From assembly GCA_023484305.1 (NCBI GenBank), contig JAMDAL010000001.1:1-32200 (forward strand): a DNA stretch of 32,200 bases. Reading direction: 5' to 3'. The position numbers were made by a program, and so were the translations under genes. Position 1 is the stretch's first letter; every line of letters begins with the position of its first letter. Source of the DNA: Patescibacteria group bacterium. GTDB lineage: Bacteria; Patescibacteriota; Microgenomatia; JACPZF01. This document shows positions 2,052 to 31,693 of the stretch, piece after piece. The notes under the pieces were generated by a model. That model did no database searches and was not told the DNA's origin. It was given only the letters and a program-made list of their open reading frames with translations.

Positions 2052-3281
2052 ATGCACACCATAATGCAAAAGAAATCAATCCTATTTATCGGTATCACAG
2101 TGTTGATTGGAATAATCATCTATTTGCTTTGGTTAACCTTTCAGCCAGCTAATTCAGCCGTTTCTTTTCAAACAGCATCTGTAAAAAAAGGGAATCTGCT
2201 TGTTACCGTTTCTGCTTCCGGTTCCGTTGTTTCCGGCGGGAACACGAATGCAATAACACAAGCCAGTGGCACAGTAATACATATATATGTTACAGAAGGG
2301 CAGAATGTGCATACAGGAGATAAGGTAGCCGAGATACAGCTTGATTCACAAGGGATACAGAATAGGGATAAATTATGGAGTACCTATTTAACGGCAAAAG
2401 CGGCGGTGGACAGCGCAAAAGCAAAACAATACGCGCTGCAGGCGCAAATGTTTTTGGACAACCAGACATTCATGAACGGGGCGGTAGCAAGCCACTTTCC
2501 TTCGTACAACCCCACCTATGCGCAGCAAAATGCCCAGTGGTTATCCAGCGAAGCGCAGTATAAAAACCAAGAGACCGTTATTCAACAGACAGAAGCAGAT
2601 CTTGCCACCGCGTGGCGTGATTATCAAAATGTAACCGGAATAATCACCGCTCCTATAAGTGGAACTGTTGTTGGTCTAAAAGCGGTTGCCGGTATGCCGA
2701 TTACCGGCAGTATCGGAGCAAATTCAGCTCCTGTGGTTATTGCTACAATCCAATCCGAAAAGCAGGTATTCGGGCAGTTTCAGGTATCAGAGATGGATAT
2801 GTCAAAGGTCAAAGTCGGACAAAAGGCACAGCTATCGATCCCCGCTATCCCCGGAAAAACATTTACCGGGACCGTTGTTGCAATTGATACAACAGGCTTA
2901 GCAAAATCAGGAGTTATCCATTTTCCGGTTACCGTTACCATAGATAATCCGACGCCCGAGCTTTTGACCAATATGTCTGCTGACGTAAAGATTATTCTTT
3001 CGGAAAAAGATCATGTACTTCTTTTGCCTTCCAGCGCCATACAAGATACCAATGGGACTTCTGTCGTTCAGGTTATTAAAAATGGGAAAGTCTTCCCGGT
3101 TCCGGTACAGGTTGGCCTTTCAAACGATACACAAACAGAAATTCTTTCCGGTCTTTCACAAAACGATATGGTGGTGACAGGAACGCAAGCAAATCAAATA
3201 CCACAAAATGGGATAACGTCGCCTTTTGGCGGACTATCCAGCCCGGGAAACCTGGCTGCCCCGGGAGGCGGGAATAATTAA
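2052..3281 (+). CDS. HlyD/MacA-like periplasmic adaptor (efflux membrane fusion protein)
   Basis: N-terminal TM, biotinyl-lipoyl-like ASGTVIHIYVTEGQNVHTGDKVAEI, ITAPISGTVVGLKAVAG; followed by MacB-like ATPase and permease. Confidence 0.85.
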   Translation: MHTIMQKKSILFIGITVLIGIIIYLLWLTFQPANSAVSFQTASVKKGNLLVTVSASGSVVSGGNTNAITQASGTVIHIYVTEGQNVHTGDKVAEIQLDSQGIQNRDKLWSTYLTAKAAVDSAKAKQYALQAQMFLDNQTFMNGAVASHFPSYNPTYAQQNAQWLSSEAQYKNQETVIQQTEADLATAWRDYQNVTGIITAPISGTVVGLKAVAGMPITGSIGANSAPVVIATIQSEKQVFGQFQVSEMDMSKVKVGQKAQLSIPAIPGKTFTGTVVAIDTTGLAKSGVIHFPVTVTIDNPTPELLTNMSADVKIILSEKDHVLLLPSSAIQDTNGTSVVQVIKNGKVFPVPVQVGLSNDTQTEILSGLSQNDMVVTGTQANQIPQNGITSPFGGLSSPGNLAAPGGGNN

Positions 3282-9267: not shown

Positions 9268-10011
9268 TTACCATGCGCTTTTTATTTCCATCTGCACGTA
9301 TATTTCTTCTAATGAAACCTCGCTGGGAAATCGGCGGAGCGTATTATCTAAGGTATCTTTATAAATAAGTTTTCCATGATTTAAAACGCCAATTGAAGTG
9401 CATGTTTTTGCAACTTCAGATAACAAGTGAGTATTCATGAAGATGGTTAAATGCTTTTCTTTATTGAGCCGGATAATAATCTCGCGTAGATTTTTAATAC
9501 CAAGGGGATCAAGTCCTGAGGTTGGTTCATCAAGAAACAGGATTTTGGGTTCGTGAATAATTGCCTGCGCAATGCCAATCCGTTGACGCATTCCTTTGGA
9601 AAACTCACCGAGTTTTTTATTCTCAATACCGTGAAAGTCTAAAAAATCAAGAACCTCTTCAATATGTTTCCTGACATCATGCACACCCGATAGTCTTGCA
9701 AAGAAGCTTAGATTTTCAAATGCAGTTAAATTATTGTAAAACGTCACGTTCTCTGGCAGATACCCAATTTGTTGTCGAACCTGCATACTTTGCTTGACCG
9801 TGTCATATCCCGCAACCGTTGCTGTACCAGAAGATGGTTGCATCAGGGTGGTAAGAATATTGATCGTTGTCGTTTTCCCCGCGCCGTTATGCCCTAAAAA
9901 TCCAAAAATCTCTCCTTCATACACCTCTAGATCTAAATTGTCTAAGGCATTGTGGGAATTATAGGAATGACTTAAAGACTTCGTCTCAATTACGGGATTG
10001 TTGGTATTCAT
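9268..10011 (-). CDS. ABC transporter ATP-binding protein (CcmA/NosF-like)
   Basis: Walker A GHNGAGKTT, FSKGMRQRIGIAQAI signature, Walker B ILFLDEPTSGLD. Confidence 0.92.
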   Translation of the reverse strand: MNTNNPVIETKSLSHSYNSHNALDNLDLEVYEGEIFGFLGHNGAGKTTTINILTTLMQPSSGTATVAGYDTVKQSMQVRQQIGYLPENVTFYNNLTAFENLSFFARLSGVHDVRKHIEEVLDFLDFHGIENKKLGEFSKGMRQRIGIAQAIIHEPKILFLDEPTSGLDPLGIKNLREIIIRLNKEKHLTIFMNTHLLSEVAKTCTSIGVLNHGKLIYKDTLDNTLRRFPSEVSLEEIYVQMEIKSAW

Positions 10012-10178
10012 GCTTTTATTTTATTTATAGAAGATGGGAATAAAATGAAAAAACATTTAGTTCGTTTTTGTCCTGTCCTGCTTTTTCATTATATGGGGTT
10101 CAAAACATCTATCAAAAAGTGGGTGTTTAAGCCTGTCGAAAAATGCAACGTGGAGAAGAAGGTCTTTTTAGTTTTATA

Positions 10179-10853
10179 TTATAAGTCTTTCCTTCGTTCG
10201 CTAAATTCTTTTTTATCAATTTCCCCACGAGCATAACGCTCTTTGAGAATATCAAGAGGGGTTTTATCGTCTTTGCTTTGTCCGGATCGGGATAAATACC
10301 GAATTAAAACAACCACTACGAGAATGAGAAGAATCCAGAAAATAATCATAGATATCCATCCGAAAAGACCAAAACCTCCCCATCCACCCATCATATTATT
10401 CCAACCACTATAACCCATCATAGGATTTCCACCTCCTCCCATCATCTGCATCATGCCCATCATCGGCATAAAGCCAGTGCCCTGTGAGGAAGTATCGCAA
10501 CCACTACCACGTTTACCCCAAGCAATATGCATTTGTTCCTCGCCTTGTTCTCCCATCATTCCCTTCATCATTTCATTCATGGCAATATGTCTTGAGGTAT
10601 CTCCAATGGCTTGACCCATAAAGTATTCGCCAATTTTTTCAAAATCTACGTCTTTAAGCTGTGAACAAGTAGTTTTTTTGTTGTTTAAGTCATCTAGAAA
10701 CCTTTTGCCCTCCTGTTCTTCTTGCTGCTGGCTTTGGATTGTGGCATTATCGGGAGATGAACTTGAAAAACCCATCATCCCTTGAGCAAAAACAGAGGAT
10801 GGTAAAATTGTCAAACTAGTAAACAGAACTAAAAACAAAACCATTTTTTTCAT
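10179..10853 (-). CDS. Met-rich secreted/membrane protein with C-terminal SHOCT domain
   Basis: Signal peptide; Met/Gly-rich MPMMGMMQMMGGGGNPMMGYSGWNNMMGG; TM; C-terminal TPLDILKERYARGEIDKKEFSERRKDL. Confidence 0.75.
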   Translation of the reverse strand: MKKMVLFLVLFTSLTILPSSVFAQGMMGFSSSSPDNATIQSQQQEEQEGKRFLDDLNNKKTTCSQLKDVDFEKIGEYFMGQAIGDTSRHIAMNEMMKGMMGEQGEEQMHIAWGKRGSGCDTSSQGTGFMPMMGMMQMMGGGGNPMMGYSGWNNMMGGWGGFGLFGWISMIIFWILLILVVVVLIRYLSRSGQSKDDKTPLDILKERYARGEIDKKEFSERRKDL

Positions 10854-10863
10854 AGGTTTTAAA

Positions 10864-11256
10864 CTATAAATCTTTAAACACTTTTGCTAACGATGGACCA
10901 AGCACTTGAATTGAAAACTCATAAAACTGGCCAAAAGGCACAATGTGCACAGTTAAATTCATTTTTAGCTTTTCGCCCATTTTCTGTATCAGATCATTTG
11001 CGGTTTCCGGATCGGATTTACTATTTGAAAGGTGAGCAAAAGAATGGAGAATTACTGTACTCGTATTATTTTTATTTGCTAGCCATTTAATGTTCCCGAC
11101 AGCTTTATCGACCACATCGTTCTTATCTTTGTCGGTTTCTTCTACATGGATAAATATAACTAGAGAGTTATCAAAACTCACCTTTTCTGTTTCAGGAGAG
11201 TCTGAACTATATGGCTTATACCAAAAACTTTTTGTGTGAAACATTAACAGCTTCAT
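10864..11256 (-). CDS. Stand-alone archaeal-ThrRS-type editing domain (tRNA-Thr_ED-like) protein
   Basis: 130 aa; MKLLMFHTKSFWYKP...VIFIHVEETDKDKNDVVDKAVGNI...VILHSFAHLSNSKSDPETANDLIQKM...VPFGQFYEFSIQVLGPSLA follows the archaeal ThrRS N-terminal editing domain throughout. Confidence 0.75.
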   Translation of the reverse strand: MKLLMFHTKSFWYKPYSSDSPETEKVSFDNSLVIFIHVEETDKDKNDVVDKAVGNIKWLANKNNTSTVILHSFAHLSNSKSDPETANDLIQKMGEKLKMNLTVHIVPFGQFYEFSIQVLGPSLAKVFKDL

Positions 11257-11639
11257 ATTTTACTTCTATCTATAATTCCTCTAATAATTTCATCAACTTC
11301 TCTAGGTAAAGAACCTAAGTTTGCCTTAGGGAAAAATTGAGGCAATATGATAGGTCGCATACCGGAAATATAAGTTTTACCGCCCTTTTGATAGACATTT
11401 ATCTTGCAAGGAAGACAAAGACCTATCTTTAGATCAGCCTGTAAAGCATTGTAGGCATTTTTAGCGTTGCATATCTCAATAATTTTGAATGGCTCAATCG
11501 TAAAACCTTTTTCAGCCAAAGTTTTCGTAACATCATGGGTATAAAGCACCCGAAATCCAGCCTTTTTTGTTTCCTGCTCCACTATGGCAACCGCATCTTC
11601 AAATGATTTTTCCGTAGTTACTGTATAATCAAAATCCAT
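11253..11639 (-). CDS. DUF302 domain protein
   Basis: MDFDYTVTTEKSFEDAVAIVEQETKKAGFRVLYTHDV...KIIEICNAKNAYNALQADLKIGLCLPCKINVYQ; AAGGAG SD favours ATG 11639; ATGA overlap with the next gene. Confidence 0.85.
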   Translation of the reverse strand: MDFDYTVTTEKSFEDAVAIVEQETKKAGFRVLYTHDVTKTLAEKGFTIEPFKIIEICNAKNAYNALQADLKIGLCLPCKINVYQKGGKTYISGMRPIILPQFFPKANLGSLPREVDEIIRGIIDRSKI

Positions 11640-11655
11640 AAATTCTCCTTTCAAA

Positions 11656-11979
11656 CTAAAATGTTAATACTTTATCGCTTGTTGCAACCAGAGAATATAA
11701 ATCTGCAATCCCACCTTTGGGACAACTTTTACTGTCTTGCTGGTGGCGCATATTCATGCATGTACCACATGCGATGAGTTCAGCTTTTTCTGCCTGTAAA
11801 AACTTATCAACCTGTTCGTTTAGATTAAATTGTTCCTGATTTACTTTGTCATACTCCACCGCTTCACCTAAAAGAAACATTCTGACTTCATCGCCTTTTG
11901 TTAAGGCTAGATTTGCTAACCTAAAAGCATTCCAGTTGGTTTCTAAATTTTTGGTAGAAAGAATTATTGATAATTTCAT
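11656..11979 (-). CDS. DsrE/DsrF-like sulfur-relay family protein
   Basis: AELIACGTCMNMRHQQDSKSCPKGGIADLYSLVATSDKVLTF; ATGA overlap with padR-like gene. Confidence 0.85.
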   Translation of the reverse strand: MKLSIILSTKNLETNWNAFRLANLALTKGDEVRMFLLGEAVEYDKVNQEQFNLNEQVDKFLQAEKAELIACGTCMNMRHQQDSKSCPKGGIADLYSLVATSDKVLTF

Positions 11980-12344
11980 ACCGGTTGACTCTTTTTGTAA
12001 CCCTCTAAAAACCTATGGATAAGTTTATCTGTTCGGGTAAGGGAGCTTGCTGCTGACTTTAAGAAGTCTTTTCCTTCCTGAGTAATGGTATAAGTCCTTC
12101 TGTCTGGACCTGAATCATTTTTCTCCCAATCGGATGTTACCCAATCATCTCTTTCCATTCTTCGTAAAGTCCTGTATAAATCGCCAATATCCACTTTTTC
12201 ACCGCAATGTTTTTCTAAATCCTCCATAAGTCCATATCCATGAGAGGAACCTTTTGAAAGGAGAAGTAAAATACACGGCTCAATAAACCGTTCAATATTG
12301 CCAAAATCCCTTGACCGAAAAGAACAGCCACAAGTTCTGCACAT
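11976..12344 (-). CDS. PadR-family transcriptional regulator with N-terminal Cys cluster
   Basis: MCRTCGCSFRSRDFGNIERFIEPCILLLLSKGSSHGYGLMEDL...DIGDLYRTLRRMERDDWVTSDWE; start at 12344 from promoter spacing and family N-terminus. Confidence 0.88.
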   Translation of the reverse strand: MCRTCGCSFRSRDFGNIERFIEPCILLLLSKGSSHGYGLMEDLEKHCGEKVDIGDLYRTLRRMERDDWVTSDWEKNDSGPDRRTYTITQEGKDFLKSAASSLTRTDKLIHRFLEGYKKSQPV

Positions 12345-12383
12345 ATATGTTAATATCATATAGCATGACAAATTAAATGTCAA
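12345..12383 (-). promoter_or_regulatory. Sigma70-type promoter upstream of padR-like operon
   Basis: TTGACA (12378-12383), exactly 17-bp spacer, TATGAT (12355-12360), ATG 10 nt after the -10; ATATG-N7-CATAT dyad overlaps the -10/start region. Confidence 0.7.
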
Positions 12384-13441
12384 GTCCTTGTACTGGTCCA
12401 GTACTTCTTGGACTCTAAGTCCTCCTTTAACATAAAAGCCATGGGTGTTAAGTAACCCAAGGCTTGGTGTGGTCTGACTGTATTGTAGTATAACAGATAA
12501 TTAATGAGTTTCTGGTTAAAACTGTGGATATCTTCAAGTTCTTCTGTGTGAGAGTCAACAAATTCCTCTTGAATGGTTCTGTTAAACCTTTCAATAAAAG
12601 CATTGGACTTAGGAGTATGAGGATAGGAAAAATAGTGGGTGATGTTCTTTCTTTTCAGGTAAGAATCAAGTTCTTTTTGAAATTCCAATCCGTTGTCAGT
12701 TTTAACTGCCTTGACTTTAAAAGGAGCTACTAGCTCCAGTTTTTGATAAAAGTCTAAGGCTATGGCACTACTGAGCCCTTTGTAGGAAAAGGCAAAAGAA
12801 AACTTGGAATAGACATCTAAACAAGTCAGAATATATCTTTTTAAACCCAAATCAAATCTGACGATGGTATCAATCTGAAGAAGCTCTCCTGGGCTTTTGG
12901 ACTTAAAGTTTTTGCTTACTCTGTCCTTGTGCCTTCTAATTCTTGTTTTTGCCCATTGAGAGCTGGCATCATGATAAACCCTGCCCAGTTTTAAATAACA
13001 CCAATGGTTTCTGTTAATGATCCTGCCTACTTTAGAAGCAGAAACTAAAGGTAAACCTTCTTTTTCACAGTAAGCATCCAGAAGTATTTTAATCTTTTGT
13101 TTACCAAACCTGCCATTGTGTAGTCTGAGGTTATGAATAAACTCTAGTATCTTTGAGTCTACCAACATCTTTCTAGTAGTTTTAGGTTTGGTTGATAAGG
13201 GGACTAAAGACATTAGGCTACCACCAGACTTTTTTAACTGTCTCTTCCACAAAAAGAGAGTACTTCTGCCTACTTGATAGGCCTCCTTAGTAGCAGTAAA
13301 ACCAAACTGATCATAGAAGGACAAAACTTTCATTCTGAACTTGGCCACATCACTAACAGAATATTGTTGAGAAGAAGAAAAATATTTCATGAGGGTAGCA
13401 TAGCCTACTACCCCTTTAAAAAGAAACCTGGTTTTGTCCAA
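12380..13441 (-). CDS. IS3/IS481-like DDE transposase (integrase core)
   Basis: 353 aa; N-terminal HTH; rve core LLQIDTIVRFD, VKTDNGLEFQKELDSYL, ITHYFSYPHTPKSNAFIERFNRTIQEEF, YNTVRPHQALGYLTP. Confidence 0.93.
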   Translation of the reverse strand: MDKTRFLFKGVVGYATLMKYFSSSQQYSVSDVAKFRMKVLSFYDQFGFTATKEAYQVGRSTLFLWKRQLKKSGGSLMSLVPLSTKPKTTRKMLVDSKILEFIHNLRLHNGRFGKQKIKILLDAYCEKEGLPLVSASKVGRIINRNHWCYLKLGRVYHDASSQWAKTRIRRHKDRVSKNFKSKSPGELLQIDTIVRFDLGLKRYILTCLDVYSKFSFAFSYKGLSSAIALDFYQKLELVAPFKVKAVKTDNGLEFQKELDSYLKRKNITHYFSYPHTPKSNAFIERFNRTIQEEFVDSHTEELEDIHSFNQKLINYLLYYNTVRPHQALGYLTPMAFMLKEDLESKKYWTSTRT

Positions 13442-13484
13442 TGCGTTTACTTAGAATAGTCCAATATGTATCTGAACTTTTGCA
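12389..13484. mobile_element. Insertion sequence; ends tentative
   Basis: Imperfect terminal inverted repeats: tgtactggtccagtacttcttggactctaagt at the left and RC of acttagaatagtccaatatgtatctgaacttttgca at the right; no clear target-site duplication. Confidence 0.5.
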
Positions 13485-13490
13485 ATTTTT

Positions 13491-13571
13491 GACCTCATCC
13501 CAACCTTCTCCTAAAAGGAGAAGGTATCTTTATTTTATACCCTCTCCTATCAGGAGAGGGTAGGGTGAGGT
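13491..13571. repeat. Palindromic CCTCAtCCC...GGGTGAGG element (copy 1)
   Basis: gacctcatcccaaccttctcctaaaaggagaaggtatctttattttataccctctcctatcaggagagggtagggtgaggt; inverted relative copy at 31681-31760. Confidence 0.9.
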
Positions 13572-13582
13572 ATAATTTAGTT

Positions 13583-14230
13583 ATGCCAGCCAAAGACCAC
13601 ATCCCGGAAATTCTTAAAATTCTTCACCAAAAATATCCCCATGCCAAAATTGTTTTAAATTATTCCAACCATTGGGAACTTTTGGTGGCAGTGGTTTTGT
13701 CCGCACAATGCACGGATAAAAAAGTCAACGAAGTAACTGCTAAACTTTTTCAAAAATATCCCAAATTTGAGGATTATGTCAGGGCAGATTTAAAGGTTTT
13801 TGAAAGCGACATTCGCTCTACTGGTTTTTATCATAATAAAGCAAAAAATATTTTGGCAGCTGCAAAAATTGTCAAAGAAAAATTTGGCGGAAAAGTTCCC
13901 GACAAAATGGCAGACTTAATCAGTCTTCCCGGAGTCGCCAGAAAAACCGCCAATATTATTTTGGGAAATGCTTTTAACATTGTGGAAGGGATTGCGGTTG
14001 ACACTCATGTGGGGAGAGTTTCCCAAAGACTGGGATTAACCAAAAACAGCGATCCGGTGAAAATCGAAAATGATTTAATGCAGCTTTTGCCAAAAACGGA
14101 ATGGTTTAAATGGAATTATATGGTGATTGATTTTGGAAGAGAAATTTGCGACGCCAAAAAACCGTTATGCGGCCAATGTCCTCTTAACAAACTTTGCCCC
14201 CTTGCTTTTAATATCAAGGTCCGCAGATAG
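13583..14230 (+). CDS. nth: Endonuclease III
   Basis: VVLSAQCTDKKVNEVT, LPGVARKTANIILGNAF, AVDTHVGRVSQRLGL, 4Fe-4S C-x6-C-x2-C-x5-C at the C-terminus; start at ATG 13583. Confidence 0.93.
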   Translation: MPAKDHIPEILKILHQKYPHAKIVLNYSNHWELLVAVVLSAQCTDKKVNEVTAKLFQKYPKFEDYVRADLKVFESDIRSTGFYHNKAKNILAAAKIVKEKFGGKVPDKMADLISLPGVARKTANIILGNAFNIVEGIAVDTHVGRVSQRLGLTKNSDPVKIENDLMQLLPKTEWFKWNYMVIDFGREICDAKKPLCGQCPLNKLCPLAFNIKVRR

Positions 14231-14259: not shown

Positions 14260-15465
14260 TTAAACAATTGTTAACCCCGGGTTGGCAGATATTTTCTTCC
14301 AGGAAACAGGGTGATAATTAAAAAATGCGCAGGAAGCAATATAAAAGGCATTGTCATTGCAAAGTTTAGGAGGCGGAATATACAGATAAATTTTAAATTT
14401 TAAATTTTTAATTTTTAATGAATTTTCAATTTCAAATTTTAATTTTTCTCTTAGTCTTTGATTGGCTGCCACTCCGCCACCCAGCAAAATAGTTTTTGGT
14501 TGATAAATTTCTGCAGCCTTAATAACTTTGGCCGTTAAAACATCAGTAATGGCTTCCTGAAGTTCATAGGAAACGGCATTAATTGTTTCATTGTTAAATT
14601 GTTTTATTGCTTTTAATTTTTCTACTTCCCGCATGACGGCCGTTTTTAAACCACTAAATGAAAAGTCTAAATTATCTTCGTTTATCAATGGCCTGGGCAA
14701 TCTAATTGTTGTCTGTTTTCTGTTATCTGTTATCTGTTGTGCCGCTGCGGCAATGGCCGGTCCCCCAAAATAACCATTTAATCCTAAAAGCCTGGCAGAT
14801 TTGTCAAAACATTCTCCGGCCGCATCGTCTCTGGTGCCGCCTAAATATTTTAATTGACCGTGGTTTTTCATTAACACCAAATCTGTGTGTCCGCCGGAAA
14901 CAACCAGACAGAGAGCTGGAAACTGGGGCAGGTTATTATTAATTTTTTCCTCTTTGTCATTCCCGCGAAAGCGGGAATCTATATGATAATTATTTTTATG
15001 GATTCCTGCCTGCGCAGGAACGACATTGGTATTAATCCAGTTGGCATAAATATGGCCGACCAGATGGTTAACCGGGACGATTGGTTTTTTCCAAACCAAG
15101 GCCAGCGTTTTGGCAGTTTCAACCCCGACCAAAAGAGAACCGATTAGGCCGGGACCAACAGTAACAGCAAGAGCGTCAATAGAATTATCGATATTACGAT
15201 ATTTCGATATTGCGATATTAGGCGCTTTTTCCTTATTTTTCCTAATATCATAATATCCTAGTATCCCGGCATTTTTTAAGGCTTCTTCAATCACCGGAAT
15301 AACGCATTTTACCTGTTCTCTGGCTGCTATCTCCGGAATTACCCCGCCGGTTTTTTGATGCAAATCTAGGGAAGAGGCAATAGTCTGAGAAATAATTTTG
15401 GTGCCGTTTTCCACTACGGCCGCAGCTGTTTCGTCACAGGAAGTTTCAAGAGCCAGAATACGCAT
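14260..15465 (-). CDS. tsaD: tRNA t6A threonylcarbamoyltransferase TsaD with several in-frame repeat-derived insertions
   Basis: MRILALETSCDETAAAVV, VGPGLIGSLLVGVETAKTLA, VNHLVGHIYA, VSGGHTDLVL, DDAAGECFDKSARLLGL, FSFSGLKTAV, LGGGVAANQRLREKL, CNDNAFYIA. Confidence 0.95.
   Translation of the reverse strand: MRILALETSCDETAAAVVENGTKIISQTIASSLDLHQKTGGVIPEIAAREQVKCVIPVIEEALKNAGILGYYDIRKNKEKAPNIAISKYRNIDNSIDALAVTVGPGLIGSLLVGVETAKTLALVWKKPIVPVNHLVGHIYANWINTNVVPAQAGIHKNNYHIDSRFRGNDKEEKINNNLPQFPALCLVVSGGHTDLVLMKNHGQLKYLGGTRDDAAGECFDKSARLLGLNGYFGGPAIAAAAQQITDNRKQTTIRLPRPLINEDNLDFSFSGLKTAVMREVEKLKAIKQFNNETINAVSYELQEAITDVLTAKVIKAAEIYQPKTILLGGGVAANQRLREKLKFEIENSLKIKNLKFKIYLYIPPPKLCNDNAFYIASCAFFNYHPVSWKKISANPGLTIV
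14385..14450. repeat. AT-rich AAATTTTAAATTTTT-type repeat inside tsaD
   Basis: ataaattttaaattttaaatttttaatttttaatgaattttcaatttcaaattttaattttt; same style at 16066-16200. Confidence 0.6.
14707..14740. repeat. CTGTTTTCTGTTATCTGTT repeat inside tsaD
   Basis: Shares 19 bp ctgttttctgttatctgtt with 18170-18205. Confidence 0.7.
14956..15024. repeat. Palindromic GTCATTCCCGCG...CGGGAATCTAT...GGATTCC...GGAACGAC element inside tsaD
   Basis: 69 bp with two internal hairpins; encodes VVPAQAGIHKNNYHIDSRFRGND on the minus strand; related shells at 18022 and 22342. Confidence 0.9.
15190..15264. repeat. 75-bp in-frame peptide-coding palindromic element (copy A, in tsaD)
   Basis: Encodes ILGYYDIRKNKEKAPNIAISKYRNI; 62/75 nt match to 21105-21179 by hand alignment. 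Confidence 0.9.
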
Positions 15466-27631: not shown

Positions 27632-27714
27632 ACACAGATTTAAACGGATGCAAAACTGATTTAAGCAGATATTTTTCTGTTTACATCTGCTTTTAATCCG
27701 CTTATATCTGTGTG
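27632..27714. repeat. 83-bp inverted repeat, left copy flanking HMG-CoA reductase
   Basis: RC matches 28888-28970 at 78/83 positions by hand alignment, ungapped. Confidence 0.95.
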
Positions 27715-27720
27715 AAAAAT

Positions 27721-28929
27721 ATGTTAAAAGGAACTAAATTAAAAGATTATCCTCATGCCCAAAAAAGACGGTTGTTTCTAGAGAAAACTTTGGGTATCAA
27801 CTTGTCTGGTTTGGGAGAATTTTCCTTTGCCGAGGATGCTGTTCGTAACAAAAATATTGAAAATTTAGTGGGAGCCACACAAATACCCATGGGTGTGGCA
27901 GGACCAATTCTTGTTAACGGTCAGTTTGCCAGAGGGGAGTTTTATTTACCTTTAGCCACAACAGAAGGGGCCTTGGTGGCTTCGGTTTCCCGCGGGTGCA
28001 AGGCAATTAGTCGGTCTGGCGGAGTAACAGTGTTAGTAGAAAATGTTGGTACTACCCGCGCCCCGGTTTTTCAGACCAAGGGAATTTCAGAAAGCAAAAA
28101 ATTAATTAAGTGGGTAGAAAATAATTTTTCCGCATTACAAAAGGTGGCAGAAAATTCTTCGTCACACCTTAAACTTTTAAACTTTAAACCATATTTTATG
28201 GGAAGAAACGTGTGGTTAAGACTTAACTTTGACACCGCTGATGCGATGGGTATGAATATGGCGACAACAGCTGCCACTCTAATAATACGTATTATCGAAG
28301 TAAAAACAGGATGCAAATGCGTTTCCGTATCCGGCAACTTAGATGTTGATAAAAAACCCAGCTGGATAAATTTTTTGGAAGGAAGAGGCAAAAAAGTTTG
28401 GGCAGAAGCTGTGATTTCTAGAGAAATAGCGCAGGAGGTTTTAAAAACCACTCCGGACAAGATGGTTGAAACAAGCAGGGCCAAAGTTTTATATGGTTCA
28501 ATTTTGTCCGGCTCTTTAGGTTTTAACAGTCACTTTGCCAACATTATTGCCGCCTTATTTGCCGCCACCGGTCAGGATTTGGCCCATATTACTGAAGGAA
28601 GTTTAGGCGTGACTACGACTGAAATTTCAGACAAAGATTTATATATCAGCATTTACTTGCCGGACTTAATGATAGGTACGGTGGGCGGGGGTACCGGCCT
28701 TCCTGCGCAAAAAGAAGCCCTGTCTTTGTTAAAAATACCAGATCCTTCTTTAAAAAGCGGTCAACAGGTTTTAAAACTGGCGGAAATTATTGGCTCTGCG
28801 GTTTTAGCAGGAGAGTTGTCCTTATTGGGTGCGCTTGCAGCAGGCCAGTTAGCCAGTGCACATGAAAAACTTGGTAGAGGCAGGATGCACACAGATATAA
28901 GCGGATTAAAAGCAGATGTAAACAGATAA
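27721..28929 (+). CDS. hmgA: Hydroxymethylglutaryl-CoA reductase
   Basis: ENLVGATQIPMGVAGPILVNG, LATTEGALVASVSRGCKAI, SGNLDVDKKPSWINFLEGRGKKVWAEAVI, GTVGGGTGLPAQKEAL, ASAHEKLGRG; ATG 27721 preferred to GTG 27712 inside the repeat. Confidence 0.95.
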   Translation: MLKGTKLKDYPHAQKRRLFLEKTLGINLSGLGEFSFAEDAVRNKNIENLVGATQIPMGVAGPILVNGQFARGEFYLPLATTEGALVASVSRGCKAISRSGGVTVLVENVGTTRAPVFQTKGISESKKLIKWVENNFSALQKVAENSSSHLKLLNFKPYFMGRNVWLRLNFDTADAMGMNMATTAATLIIRIIEVKTGCKCVSVSGNLDVDKKPSWINFLEGRGKKVWAEAVISREIAQEVLKTTPDKMVETSRAKVLYGSILSGSLGFNSHFANIIAALFAATGQDLAHITEGSLGVTTTEISDKDLYISIYLPDLMIGTVGGGTGLPAQKEALSLLKIPDPSLKSGQQVLKLAEIIGSAVLAGELSLLGALAAGQLASAHEKLGRGRMHTDISGLKADVNR

Positions 28930-28970
28930 ATACCTGCTTAAATCAGTTTGTCATCTGTTTAAATCTGTGT
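28888..28970. repeat. 83-bp inverted repeat, right copy overlapping 3' end of HMG-CoA reductase
   Basis: Codons CAC ACA GAT ATA AGC GGA TTA AAA GCA GAT GTA AAC AGA TAA are all within the repeat. Confidence 0.95.
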
Positions 28971-28978
28971 AAAAAATT

Positions 28979-30013
28979 ATGCTAACAGGTATCGTAGGTT
29001 ACGGCGTTTATATTCCAAAAGGAAGAATTAAAACTTCCGAAATTGCCCGCGTCTGGAAAAAAGAAGCCTCTGATTTAGAACATTCTTTGGGCGTTTTGGA
29101 AAAGGCAGTGGCTGCAATTGACGAAGACGCGGTCACTTTGGCCACCCAGGCGGGAAAGGATGCCATTTTTATGTCCGGGGTTAATCCGCAAGAAATTGAA
29201 GCCATGCTGGTTGGTTCCGAGTCTCATCCGTATGCGGTTAATCCTTCCAGTACTATTGTGGCTGAAGCCCTGGGATTTTCCAATTCCTACTTGGCAGCGG
29301 ATTTAGAGTTTGCCTGCAAGGCCGGAACCGCCGGGTTAATTTTTGTGGCCGGGTTGGTGGAAGCAGGAAAAATAAGTTTAGGCATGGCCATTGGTTCTGA
29401 CACGGCACAGGCCAAACCTCATGATGTTTTGGAATACACTGCAGGGGCAGGGGCAGGAGCATATCTTTTGGGCACGAAAAACATTTTGGCAAACATTCTG
29501 GATTACACTTCTTTTTCTTCCGACACTCCGGATTTTTGGCGCCGGGAAGGCATGCGCTATCCTTCTCATGGCGGCCGCTTTACCGGAGAACCGGCCTATT
29601 ACACTCATATTTTGGGGGCAGCAGAGGCGCTTTTGACCAAAACCAAAACCAAACCGAGCGATTATGATTATTGCGTTTTTCACAGCCCCAACGGCAAATT
29701 TCCCCAGGCAATTTATTCCAGATTAGGCTTTACACCGGAGCAATTTAAACCCGGATTTATTGTTGATAAAATCGGCAACCCTTATTCTGCTTCTTCGCTT
29801 TTATCTTTAGCGTCGGTTTTAGAAATTGCCAAACCCAAACAAAAAATCTTTCTGGTTTCTTATGGTTCCGGGGCAGGTTCAGACGCTTTTGCCTTAGAAA
29901 CGACAAATTTATTGCCAAAAGCCAGAACTAAAACCAAGCAGATTTCCTGGTTTATAAACAACAAAAATTATCTGGACTACATTCAATTATTAAAAAATGA
30001 AAAGAAAATTTAA
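28979..30013 (+). CDS. Archaeal-type hydroxymethylglutaryl-CoA synthase
   Basis: GIVGYGVYIPKGRIKTSEIARVW, VGSESHPYAVNPSSTIVAEALG, LEFACKAGTAGL, DYCVFHSPNGKFPQ, LVSYGSGAGSDAF. Confidence 0.93.
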   Translation: MLTGIVGYGVYIPKGRIKTSEIARVWKKEASDLEHSLGVLEKAVAAIDEDAVTLATQAGKDAIFMSGVNPQEIEAMLVGSESHPYAVNPSSTIVAEALGFSNSYLAADLEFACKAGTAGLIFVAGLVEAGKISLGMAIGSDTAQAKPHDVLEYTAGAGAGAYLLGTKNILANILDYTSFSSDTPDFWRREGMRYPSHGGRFTGEPAYYTHILGAAEALLTKTKTKPSDYDYCVFHSPNGKFPQAIYSRLGFTPEQFKPGFIVDKIGNPYSASSLLSLASVLEIAKPKQKIFLVSYGSGAGSDAFALETTNLLPKARTKTKQISWFINNKNYLDYIQLLKNEKKI

Positions 30014-30038
30014 AAGATAACGATTAAATATTAACGAG

Positions 30039-30073
30039 TTAACGGGTTAACGCGTTAATAAATAACCCGTTAA
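30039..30073. repeat. TTAACGGGTTA-N13-TAACCCGTTAA hairpin upstream of thiolase
   Basis: 11-bp perfect inverted repeat; additional TTAACG units at 30031-30036 and in the loop. Confidence 0.85.
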
Positions 30074-30088
30074 TAATTAATAAAAAAT

Positions 30089-31240
30089 ATGGCGATTACT
30101 GTTTTAGGCGCTTCTACCACTAATTTTGGTGAACTCTGGAATCAGAGTTTGCGCGATTTAATTAGAGAAGCCAGCCTCTTAGCCCTAAAAGATGCCAATT
30201 TAAGCCCCAAGGATGTGGAAGCGGTTTTTGTTGGCAATATGCTGTCAGGAATTTTAGGCAGTCAGGAACAATTAGGGCCGGTGGTAACAGAAGAGTTGGG
30301 CATAAATGTTTCTGCCACAAGGGTGGAGGCGGCTTGCGCCTCAGGGGGGCTGGCAATTTATGAAGCAGTTAACAGTTTATTGTCCCAAAGATTTACAACA
30401 GTTTTGGTCGTAGGCGCGGAAAAAATGACGGATAAACCAGCGGAAAAAATCACCAGCAGTTTAATGGCAGCCGGTTCTGATGCCGAAAGACAGGCCGGAG
30501 CGACTTTTCCCAGTTTGTATGCGCTTTTGGCCAAAGCGCATATGGAAAAATACGGGACCAGCGAAGAAGAAATGGCAGCCGTGGCAGTTAAAAATCACTA
30601 CCATGCTTCCTTAAACGGCCAGGCGCAGTTTCGCTTTTCCATTACCATAGAACAAGTTTTAAAAAGCACAAAAATTTGTGACCCCTTAAAACTTCTGGAC
30701 TGTTCGCCGATTACCGATGGGGCAGCAGCAGTGGTACTTACGTCAGAAAACAGTAAACAAAAAACAGTAAACAGGCATGTTTACATTAATGCTTGTGAGA
30801 CTGCAACCGATACTCTGGGTCTGGCGCAAAGAGAAAGTTTGACAGAGTTAAAAGCGACCAAACTGGCAGCAGAAAAGGCTTATAAAAAGGCCGGTGTCAC
30901 ACCCAAGGATATTGATGTGGCAGAACTTCATGACTGTTTTACTATTGCCGAGATTATGGCAGTTGAGGATTTAGGATTTTTTAAAAAAGGCGAAGCCGGA
31001 AAAAAATTTTTACAAGGAGAAACCAAATTGGGAAGCAAAGGCTTAATCACTAACACATCAGGGGGGCTCAAGGCCTGCGGGCATCCGGTGGGAGCAACCG
31101 GCATTAAACAAATTGCCGAGATTACCAAGCAGCTTAGGGGCAAAGCAGAGAAAAAACAAGTGGAAAATGCCAAGGTTGGGCTGTGTCAAAATGTAGGAGG
31201 GTCCGGCGCGACAGCAGTAGTTACTATTTTAACAAATTAA
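30089..31240 (+). CDS. Thiolase / acetyl-CoA C-acetyltransferase
   Basis: VEAACASGGLAIYEAVNSL, ELHDCFTIAEIMAVEDLG, NTSGGLKACGHPVGATGIKQIAEI, CQNVGGSGATAVVTIL. Confidence 0.94.
   Translation: MAITVLGASTTNFGELWNQSLRDLIREASLLALKDANLSPKDVEAVFVGNMLSGILGSQEQLGPVVTEELGINVSATRVEAACASGGLAIYEAVNSLLSQRFTTVLVVGAEKMTDKPAEKITSSLMAAGSDAERQAGATFPSLYALLAKAHMEKYGTSEEEMAAVAVKNHYHASLNGQAQFRFSITIEQVLKSTKICDPLKLLDCSPITDGAAAVVLTSENSKQKTVNRHVYINACETATDTLGLAQRESLTELKATKLAAEKAYKKAGVTPKDIDVAELHDCFTIAEIMAVEDLGFFKKGEAGKKFLQGETKLGSKGLITNTSGGLKACGHPVGATGIKQIAEITKQLRGKAEKKQVENAKVGLCQNVGGSGATAVVTILTN
30744..30775. repeat. CTGTTTACTGTTTTCTG-type repeat inside thiolase
   Basis: cagaaaacagtaaacaaaaaacagtaaacagg; RC shares 17 bp ctgtttactgttttctg with 18166-18205. 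Confidence 0.6.
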
Positions 31241-31241
31241 C

Positions 31242-31341
31242 AGCTTGCTAAGGTCGCTTAGCAATTTTTTCCGGCGTCAAAAGTCCTTCGACAAGCTCAG
31301 GACCGCGACTCCTCAAAAATTGTCTAAGCTCCCCGCAAGCT
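31242..31341. repeat. Long imperfect palindrome between thiolase and DUF35 gene
   Basis: agcttgc...gcttagcaattttt pairs with aaaaattgtctaagc...gcaagct; inner gtcct/aggac stem; shares ttcgacaagctcag with 25871-25970. Confidence 0.75.
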
Positions 31342-31366
31342 TTAGAGATAAAAATAAGGAAAATTT

Positions 31367-31693
31367 ATGACTAGTCCAATAAAAATCTGGAGAGAACAGA
31401 AAAAAATTAAAAACTTTTTAGGTTTAAAAGGAAAAGTCGTCAGTGCGACTTTGGTGCGCGTGCCTCCTTTGGGATTTTCTAATCAGGCGCCGTATTTTGT
31501 GGCGATTGTGGATATGGAAAACCCAGCCAAAGGCGGGCAAGGCAAGCAACGGCTAATTGGCCAAATGGTGGATGTGTTTGAAACCGAAATAAAAACCGGG
31601 CAAAAAGTGGAAGTAGTTTACCGCAAATTGGCAGAGACAGACAAAGAAGACGTCATTCATTACGGTATAAAATTCAGACCAACCTCACCCTAA
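31367..31693 (+). CDS. DUF35 OB-fold protein (thiolase/HMGCS partner), lacking Zn-ribbon cysteines
   Basis: IKIWREQKKIKNFLGLKGKVVSATLVRVPPLGFSNQAPYFVAIVDME...GQMVDVFETEIKTGQKVEVVYRKL; located after thiolase as in archaeal clusters. Confidence 0.82.
   Translation: MTSPIKIWREQKKIKNFLGLKGKVVSATLVRVPPLGFSNQAPYFVAIVDMENPAKGGQGKQRLIGQMVDVFETEIKTGQKVEVVYRKLAETDKEDVIHYGIKFRPTSP

Follow-up and report, generated by a model that had tools for sequence, protein, structure and literature searches.

The closest described relatives of the protein at the centre of this analysis are the archaeal ThrRS editing domain and the trans-editing ThrRS-2 (PF08915), with which it shares its fold and the FAH and PFG motifs. 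In archaeal editing domains the K121M substitution severely compromises activity, the side chains of Y120 and E134 are dispensable, and DTD itself has Met at the K121 position (PMC4491819). Animal ATD is a DTD-fold deacylase for tRNA(Thr) that backs up ThrRS under oxidative stress (PMC7302879), and the editing-site Cys of E. coli ThrRS is sensitive to oxidants (PMC4041444). Stand-alone tRNA-Thr-ED genes have also been described in archaea beside sulfur metabolism genes, in association with SepCysS clade VII (Mukai et al. 2017, PMC5424206), and in SepRS-fused bacterial editing domains the serine-recognition motif is reported to be fully conserved (PMC8762117).

A homologue of these domains is encoded in the 723-kb genome of a Patescibacteria group bacterium (GCA_023484305.1; 83% complete, 54 contigs including the one analysed), on contig JAMDAL010000001.1, whose positions 1-32,200 are referred to here as the window. 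It belongs to a five-gene operon on the minus strand with the gene order PadR-DsrE-DUF302-tRNA-Thr_ED-SHOCT. All five domain assignments of the original prediction score above the curated Pfam cut-offs: PadR (11976-12344) with 69 bits against 27, DsrE (11656-11979) with 38.5 against 22.7, DUF302 (11253-11639) with 66.6 against 23, the tRNA-Thr_ED protein (ED; 10864-11256) with 131.1 bits against 30.2 for PF08915, and the SHOCT protein (10179-10853) with 33.7 against 27. The spacing is likewise as predicted, with ATGA overlaps at PadR/DsrE (11976-11979) and DUF302/ED (11253-11256), a 16-nt, SD-bearing gap between DsrE and DUF302 that contains AAAGGAG, and 10 nt between ED and SHOCT. The predicted Cys motifs are all present (MCRTCGC in PadR, CGTC...SC in DsrE, CLPC in DUF302), and the SHOCT protein is Met-rich as claimed (10.3% Met, compared with a 2% median for the window's long ORFs; 20 Met within a stretch of 141 residues). 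In an Rfam scan of the window no RNA family reached its gathering threshold. In this arrangement a single, probably self-regulated promoter would drive a protein of tRNA-proofreading fold together with metal-handling proteins of sulfur and copper type, a hint that translation quality control has become wired into a metal/thiol stress response. Our preferred reading, held tentatively and at slightly below an even chance, is that the operon is a mobile stress cassette that deals with soft (thiophilic) metal, copper being the likeliest, with reactive sulfur or with both, and into which a tRNA-deacylase-fold protein has been recruited.

The operon is real, conserved and mobile. Scanning genomes with ED as query yielded 17 loci, whose neighbouring genes were typed with local HMMs. 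The complete order is found in L020 and, with a broken DUF302, in a WWE3 genome (L023, equal to L015); a Woesebacteria copy (L021) reads DUF302-ED-SHOCT and is cut by the contig end, and L022 reads PadR-DsrE-ED-SHOCT, without DUF302. The order thus occurs in five Patescibacteria genomes, the window's included, between unrelated flanking genes; the original prediction, which had been exposed to the loss of either its neighbourhood or its domains, survived on both counts through the four other genomes and the Pfam scores. A Chloroflexi genome (L024) carries ArsR-DsrE-small ferredoxin-like Cys protein-ED, in which the DsrE-ED pairing persists though all other genes differ. In the ED tree the five Patescibacteria proteins form one clade (95/95), sister to three Chloroflexi/Dehalococcoidia EDs in a joint group supported at 99/98. 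This relationship and the patchy distribution, with high-identity ED copies in 2 of 384 Patescibacteria, together indicate horizontal spread. No ED relatives were found in viral contigs or plasmids. A tyrosine recombinase beside a DsrE-SHOCT pair (L067:4735-5580) is a further hint of mobility, and just upstream of PadR in L015 lies a C-terminal fragment similar to a thioredoxin/DsbA-like protein (GTPTVFINNTALIGLKPY; 2092-2274, minus strand).

Every gene of the operon is under purifying selection, with dN/dS of about 0.08-0.20 where dS is measurable and about 0.10-0.12 for ED, whose dS is unsaturated. At codons for the same amino acid, ED differs in 0.16-0.41 of cases and PadR, DsrE, SHOCT and DUF302 in 0.39-0.59, and ED is the lower in nearly all pairs among the window, L015, L020, L021 and L022; this fits either a most recent arrival of ED or an extra constraint on it at the nucleotide level. 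The same data bear on the possibility that unrelated small genes were merely brought together by chance or by transposons and have no joint function. An rve-type transposase (Pfam rve_3/rve; 12380-13441, minus strand), a neighbour outside the system, does abut the window promoter, a different rve transposase (rve_3) adjoins the L015 copy, and two of the five copies lack an intact DUF302. Such a juxtaposition would require very recent clones, whereas the copies share 52-82% amino-acid identity and four of the genes approach saturation at synonymous sites. Order and overlaps are moreover kept between different flanks, the operator is conserved along with the selected coding regions, and the DsrE-SHOCT pair is conserved far beyond the five operons, so that this explanation is largely refuted and must be considered highly improbable. 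Carriage of the cassette as passenger of a neighbouring IS was also considered and rejected, as no convincing inverted-repeat ends surround it in window 9900-13700.

In the promoter/operator region (12344-12386, minus strand), a TTGACA-N17-TATGAT promoter overlaps a perfect inverted repeat, TATATG-ATATTAA-CATATA (12344-12362), that reaches into the PadR ATG. Promoter and repeat are kept wherever the 5' end of a PadR operon could be read, in four cases (window, L015, L020 and L022), with the repeat consensus TATATG-ATATTWA-CATATA, a -35 element of TTGAC(A)/TTTAC, a 17-nt spacer and TATGAT, while DNA further upstream is unrelated among the four; the 723-kb host genome has a single such site. PadR most plausibly begins at the ATG at 12344; ORF starts further out would read through the promoter, where the conserved DNA yields a spurious "CYMI(L/F)TYM" peptide in several genomes. 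Because operator and promoter are conserved right up to the ATG, we infer that PadR represses its own operon through the predicted operator and that the 5' leader is very short or absent. With its wHTH domain and an operator-like inverted repeat in the promoter of its own gene, PadR has the sequence features of an autoregulated repressor with a putative binding site. Across the four operons PadR is 70-77% identical and its Cys residues are conserved, both in the N-terminal MC[RK]TCGC cluster and at extra positions in EPC and KHCGE; its relatives in the PDB include TM0937 and other PadR-family regulators. In the proposed mechanism, PadR with its Cys cluster would occupy the inverted repeat and hold the operon off until metal, or oxidised or persulfidated thiols, released it; the site is a conserved sequence and the effector a proposed one. 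PadR is not, to our knowledge, among the usual copper regulators.

The ED protein has the fold of an editing domain. It scores over the PF08915 cut-off, and its AlphaFold model (pLDDT 86.5) matches archaeal ThrRS editing domains in Foldseek with TM 0.80-0.87 (1y2q, 4rrh, 3pd4) and DTD/ATD next. The claim that a tRNA-editing fold had been recruited stands as a statement of fold and by phylogeny, while the function of ED is a prediction. ED differs from the archaeal domains in standing alone, without an anticodon-binding domain, and in key residues: aligned to the archaeal enzyme, Y112 takes the place of K121, F111 that of Y120 and K125 that of E134, and the pocket His (H75) is kept. The K121 equivalent is lost in all 18 aligned members of the subfamily (Y/L/C/N/F), the E134 equivalent is now K/R, the KGHP motif is lost and the G109 motif is kept. 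The subfamily has its own signature, KxxxNxxWxxxK ... AKVFK, with invariant K51, N55, W58, K62, V126, F127 and K128. Since the equivalent of K121 is lost, while K121M cripples archaeal enzymes (PMC4491819), deacylase activity of the predicted protein is doubtful. The main rival to a role in back-up quality control is that ED is no longer a tRNA deacylase and that its pocket, repurposed for another ligand (a nucleotide, a thiol adduct or a partner protein), now serves the metal/thiol module, perhaps with ED as a carrier or DsrE partner. The universal loss of the lysine, the altered E134 position, the missing KGHP, the new invariants of KxxxNxxWxxxK and VFK and the persistence of the DsrE-ED pair in L024 speak for such a change. 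Retention of H75 and of the G109 motif, the dispensability of the Y120 and E134 side chains and the Met of DTD at the lysine position speak against it, and we regard repurposing as possible but rather unlikely.

Other stand-alone EDs put the subfamily into relief. Two in the same phylum (L016 and L018) retain the lysine and lie outside any operon of this kind. Of 21 genome matches to stand-alone EDs in the wider Chloroflexota, 19 belong to different subfamilies with N or another residue at K121. A Chloroflexota stand-alone subfamily other than the operon's (L099-L117; FGWFN..KGHPLSRVAR) has Asn or another residue at this position. In a Njordarchaeota genome (L032:5481-6414), a DJ-1/PfpI gene is followed after 16 nt by an ED of the operon's own subfamily, a further case of a partner of stress type. 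In contrast to SepRS-fused bacterial EDs, the serine-recognition motif is unconserved in the operon ED.

Unlike the setting of archaeal ThrRS-2, the host of ED has a bacterial ThrRS with an editing domain of its own (L009:937-2886; tRNA_SAD 69.5 bits and a DLCSGPH Cys/His motif), and ED sits in a PadR-DsrE-SHOCT operon. The tRNA_SAD domain rules out ED as a necessary trans-editor for an editing-less ThrRS. In the preferred reading ED was probably a later addition to the operon, from a Chloroflexi/archaeal-type family, and has kept the deacylase fold without the archaeal lysine. Back-up quality control is the preferred role because of the ATD precedent (PMC7302879): ED would most likely act as a stress-induced, cysteine-independent tRNA quality control factor in trans, backing up a host editing site whose Cys type is poisoned by oxidants. 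The likeness to ATD lies in this proposed logic, a Cys-independent DTD-fold protein that keeps Thr codons safe once the ThrRS editing site has been oxidised; ED differs from it in subfamily, and its activity is putative. Besides the loss of the lysine, the occurrence of many ED-subfamily members without DsrE counts against the preferred reading of the operon. If the back-up role is correct, the operon would correspond in bacteria to the animal strategy, with a cysteine-free deacylase-fold protein co-expressed with metal/thiol proteins; otherwise it would point to a novel use of the DTD fold. More broadly, the ED/DTD-fold family with the KxxxNxxWxxxK...AKVFK signature may have left proofreading, or made it conditional, and in Patescibacteria and Chloroflexi may act under PadR or ArsR control as an effector of a stress module for soft metal and thiols, whether as a direct regulatory bridge from metal/thiol stress to tRNA quality control or as a new function of the fold; we put this forward as a genuine possibility that falls short of probable.

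An alternative reading of the whole operon is that it handles sulfur (persulfide or sulfane sulfur) rather than metal: DsrE and DUF302 would carry or detoxify persulfide, PadR would sense it, and ED would police mis-acylated tRNA(Cys). DUF302 is found in sulfur-oxidation clusters (PMC5037610, PMC6305408), and the archaeal EDs coupled to SepCysS (PMC5424206) resemble the operon ED as stand-alone homologues beside sulfur-related genes, differing in that the partners here are DsrE, DUF302, PadR and SHOCT. The Chloroflexi ArsR-DsrE-ferredoxin-like-ED locus also agrees with this reading, and SepCysS is present in two of the three Chloroflexi genomes with related EDs (G387, G389). SepCysS (TIGR02539) is, however, absent over cut-off from all five Patescibacteria hosts, the window's genome being 83% complete, which rules it out as partner of ED there. 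Where the neighbours of Patescibacteria copies were typed, they included no recognisable gene for a rhodanese, Tus, Dsr, Sox or persulfide dioxygenase, and the exported Met-rich partner and the copper genes described below suit metal better. We regard a sulfur role in place of a metal role as unlikely. Because SepCysS is missing in the Patescibacteria hosts and present in Chloroflexi relatives, the link to sulfur and tRNA(Cys) may fit the ancestry of ED more than its present job. The original prediction knew of no described system of this composition, and this holds as far as can be searched, with nothing relevant found in the literature on DsrE, DUF302, PadR and SHOCT together or on SHOCT and copper; yet the association of ED with sulfur-type genes is not wholly unprecedented, because the SepCysS-linked archaeal EDs had already been described.

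For the metal reading, which we prefer, the remaining proteins are central. DsrE is of the YchN type (E. coli YchN, 1jx7, is the closest among solved structures; profile match E 8.7e-5) and scores below the TusD/DsrE equivalog TIGR03012 (18.5 bits, cut-off 89). It resembles YchN and DsrE-DsrF-like sulfur carriers in sequence family and in the CxTC segment; it differs in having no TusB/TusC-type partner (no second DsrE-family gene is found among the operon genes), in a near-invariant third Cys near the C-terminus in addition to the conserved CGTC, and in pairing with an exported Met-rich SHOCT protein. In the latter, a signal peptide precedes the exported helical domain, a single TM helix and the cytosolic SHOCT tail. 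Its exported domain has many Met pairs and, in the alignment, invariant C63, C119, H89, H109, M79 and M92; the helical region 36-117 is modelled with high confidence, and a PDB fold search with the model gave no significant match. The L020 protein is a short form without the exported domain. The DsrE subfamily is present in 23 of 384 Patescibacteria genomes, many with a Met-rich SHOCT gene adjacent or nearly adjacent (L063, L065, L067, L068, L073-L077, L080, L120 and others) and most of these pairs without PadR or ED. On this gene-neighbourhood evidence, DsrE and Met-rich SHOCT are a wider Patescibacteria core, and PadR, DUF302 and ED are additions to it. The DsrE proteins of ED operons are not supported as a strict clade, although such a clade is not rejected either (p-AU 0.118). 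A cytosolic three-Cys YchN/DsrE carrier and an exported, membrane-anchored Met/His/Cys-rich protein would then form the conserved core, the latter presumably binding metal outside the membrane; its conservation is observed, and metal binding by both is deduced. DUF302 (CLPC; PDB 1q9u, E 4.9e-17) would be an optional cytosolic thiol/metal accessory. It is dispensable, being absent from L022 and broken by an internal deletion and a frameshift in the WWE3 copy (L015:1177-1380, minus strand), where either true decay or faulty MAG assembly could account for the break. Candidate functions are thereby proposed for DUF302, YchN-type DsrE and Met-rich SHOCT in uncultured bacteria with little-known metal biology.

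The original prediction of a Cu- or thiol-responsive system is upheld in part and indirectly, by the copper genes near the DsrE-SHOCT cores of relatives. Clusters of the copper resistance type, known for CopA, CusA, multicopper oxidase and Met-rich periplasmic proteins, contain or adjoin relatives of DsrE, DUF302 and SHOCT: a Cu-ATPase and GDCCVxC lie beside the ED operon in L020, CopA near DsrE in L075, CopA, HMA-DsbD-cupredoxin, multicopper oxidase and DUF302 near DsrE in L076, and a CusA/CzcA-type RND, ArsR, DsrE, DUF302 and multicopper oxidase together in L082. DsrE copies without ED lie near CopA, CusA-type RND and multicopper oxidase genes above chance. For CopA within 10 kb of DsrE, 5 genomes were observed and 0.57 expected (P 3e-4), a window size picked after the data were seen (P 0.035 at 5 kb and 0.002 at 15 kb) and a count in which one genome (G294) rests on a DsrE fragment. 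CopA is found in 20 of the 23 DsrE-bearing genomes and in 215 of 361 others (Fisher p 0.006). Against the metal reading, the majority of DsrE loci are more than 10 kb from CopA, and the window operon, in contrast to the copper clusters, has neither transporter nor copper enzyme such as an oxidase. In the host genome, 83% complete, no copper P-type ATPase scores above the cut-off of its family, and a copper exporter is therefore no fixed partner of the operon.

Several further observations concern the surroundings of these loci. A T6SS Hcp-type protein (72 bits; L075:7672-8190) is encoded beside the Patescibacteria DsrE-SHOCT-DUF302-CopA locus. In the window, a TsaD-like ORF (14260-15465) contains an in-frame "VPAQAGIHKNN...SRFRGNDKE", typical of a dispersed repeat, and its C-terminus looks degenerate. 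Finally, window 27712-31693 looks by eye like a run of mevalonate-pathway genes, for HMG-CoA reductase, HMG-CoA synthase, thiolase and an OB-fold partner, in this small Patescibacteria genome.
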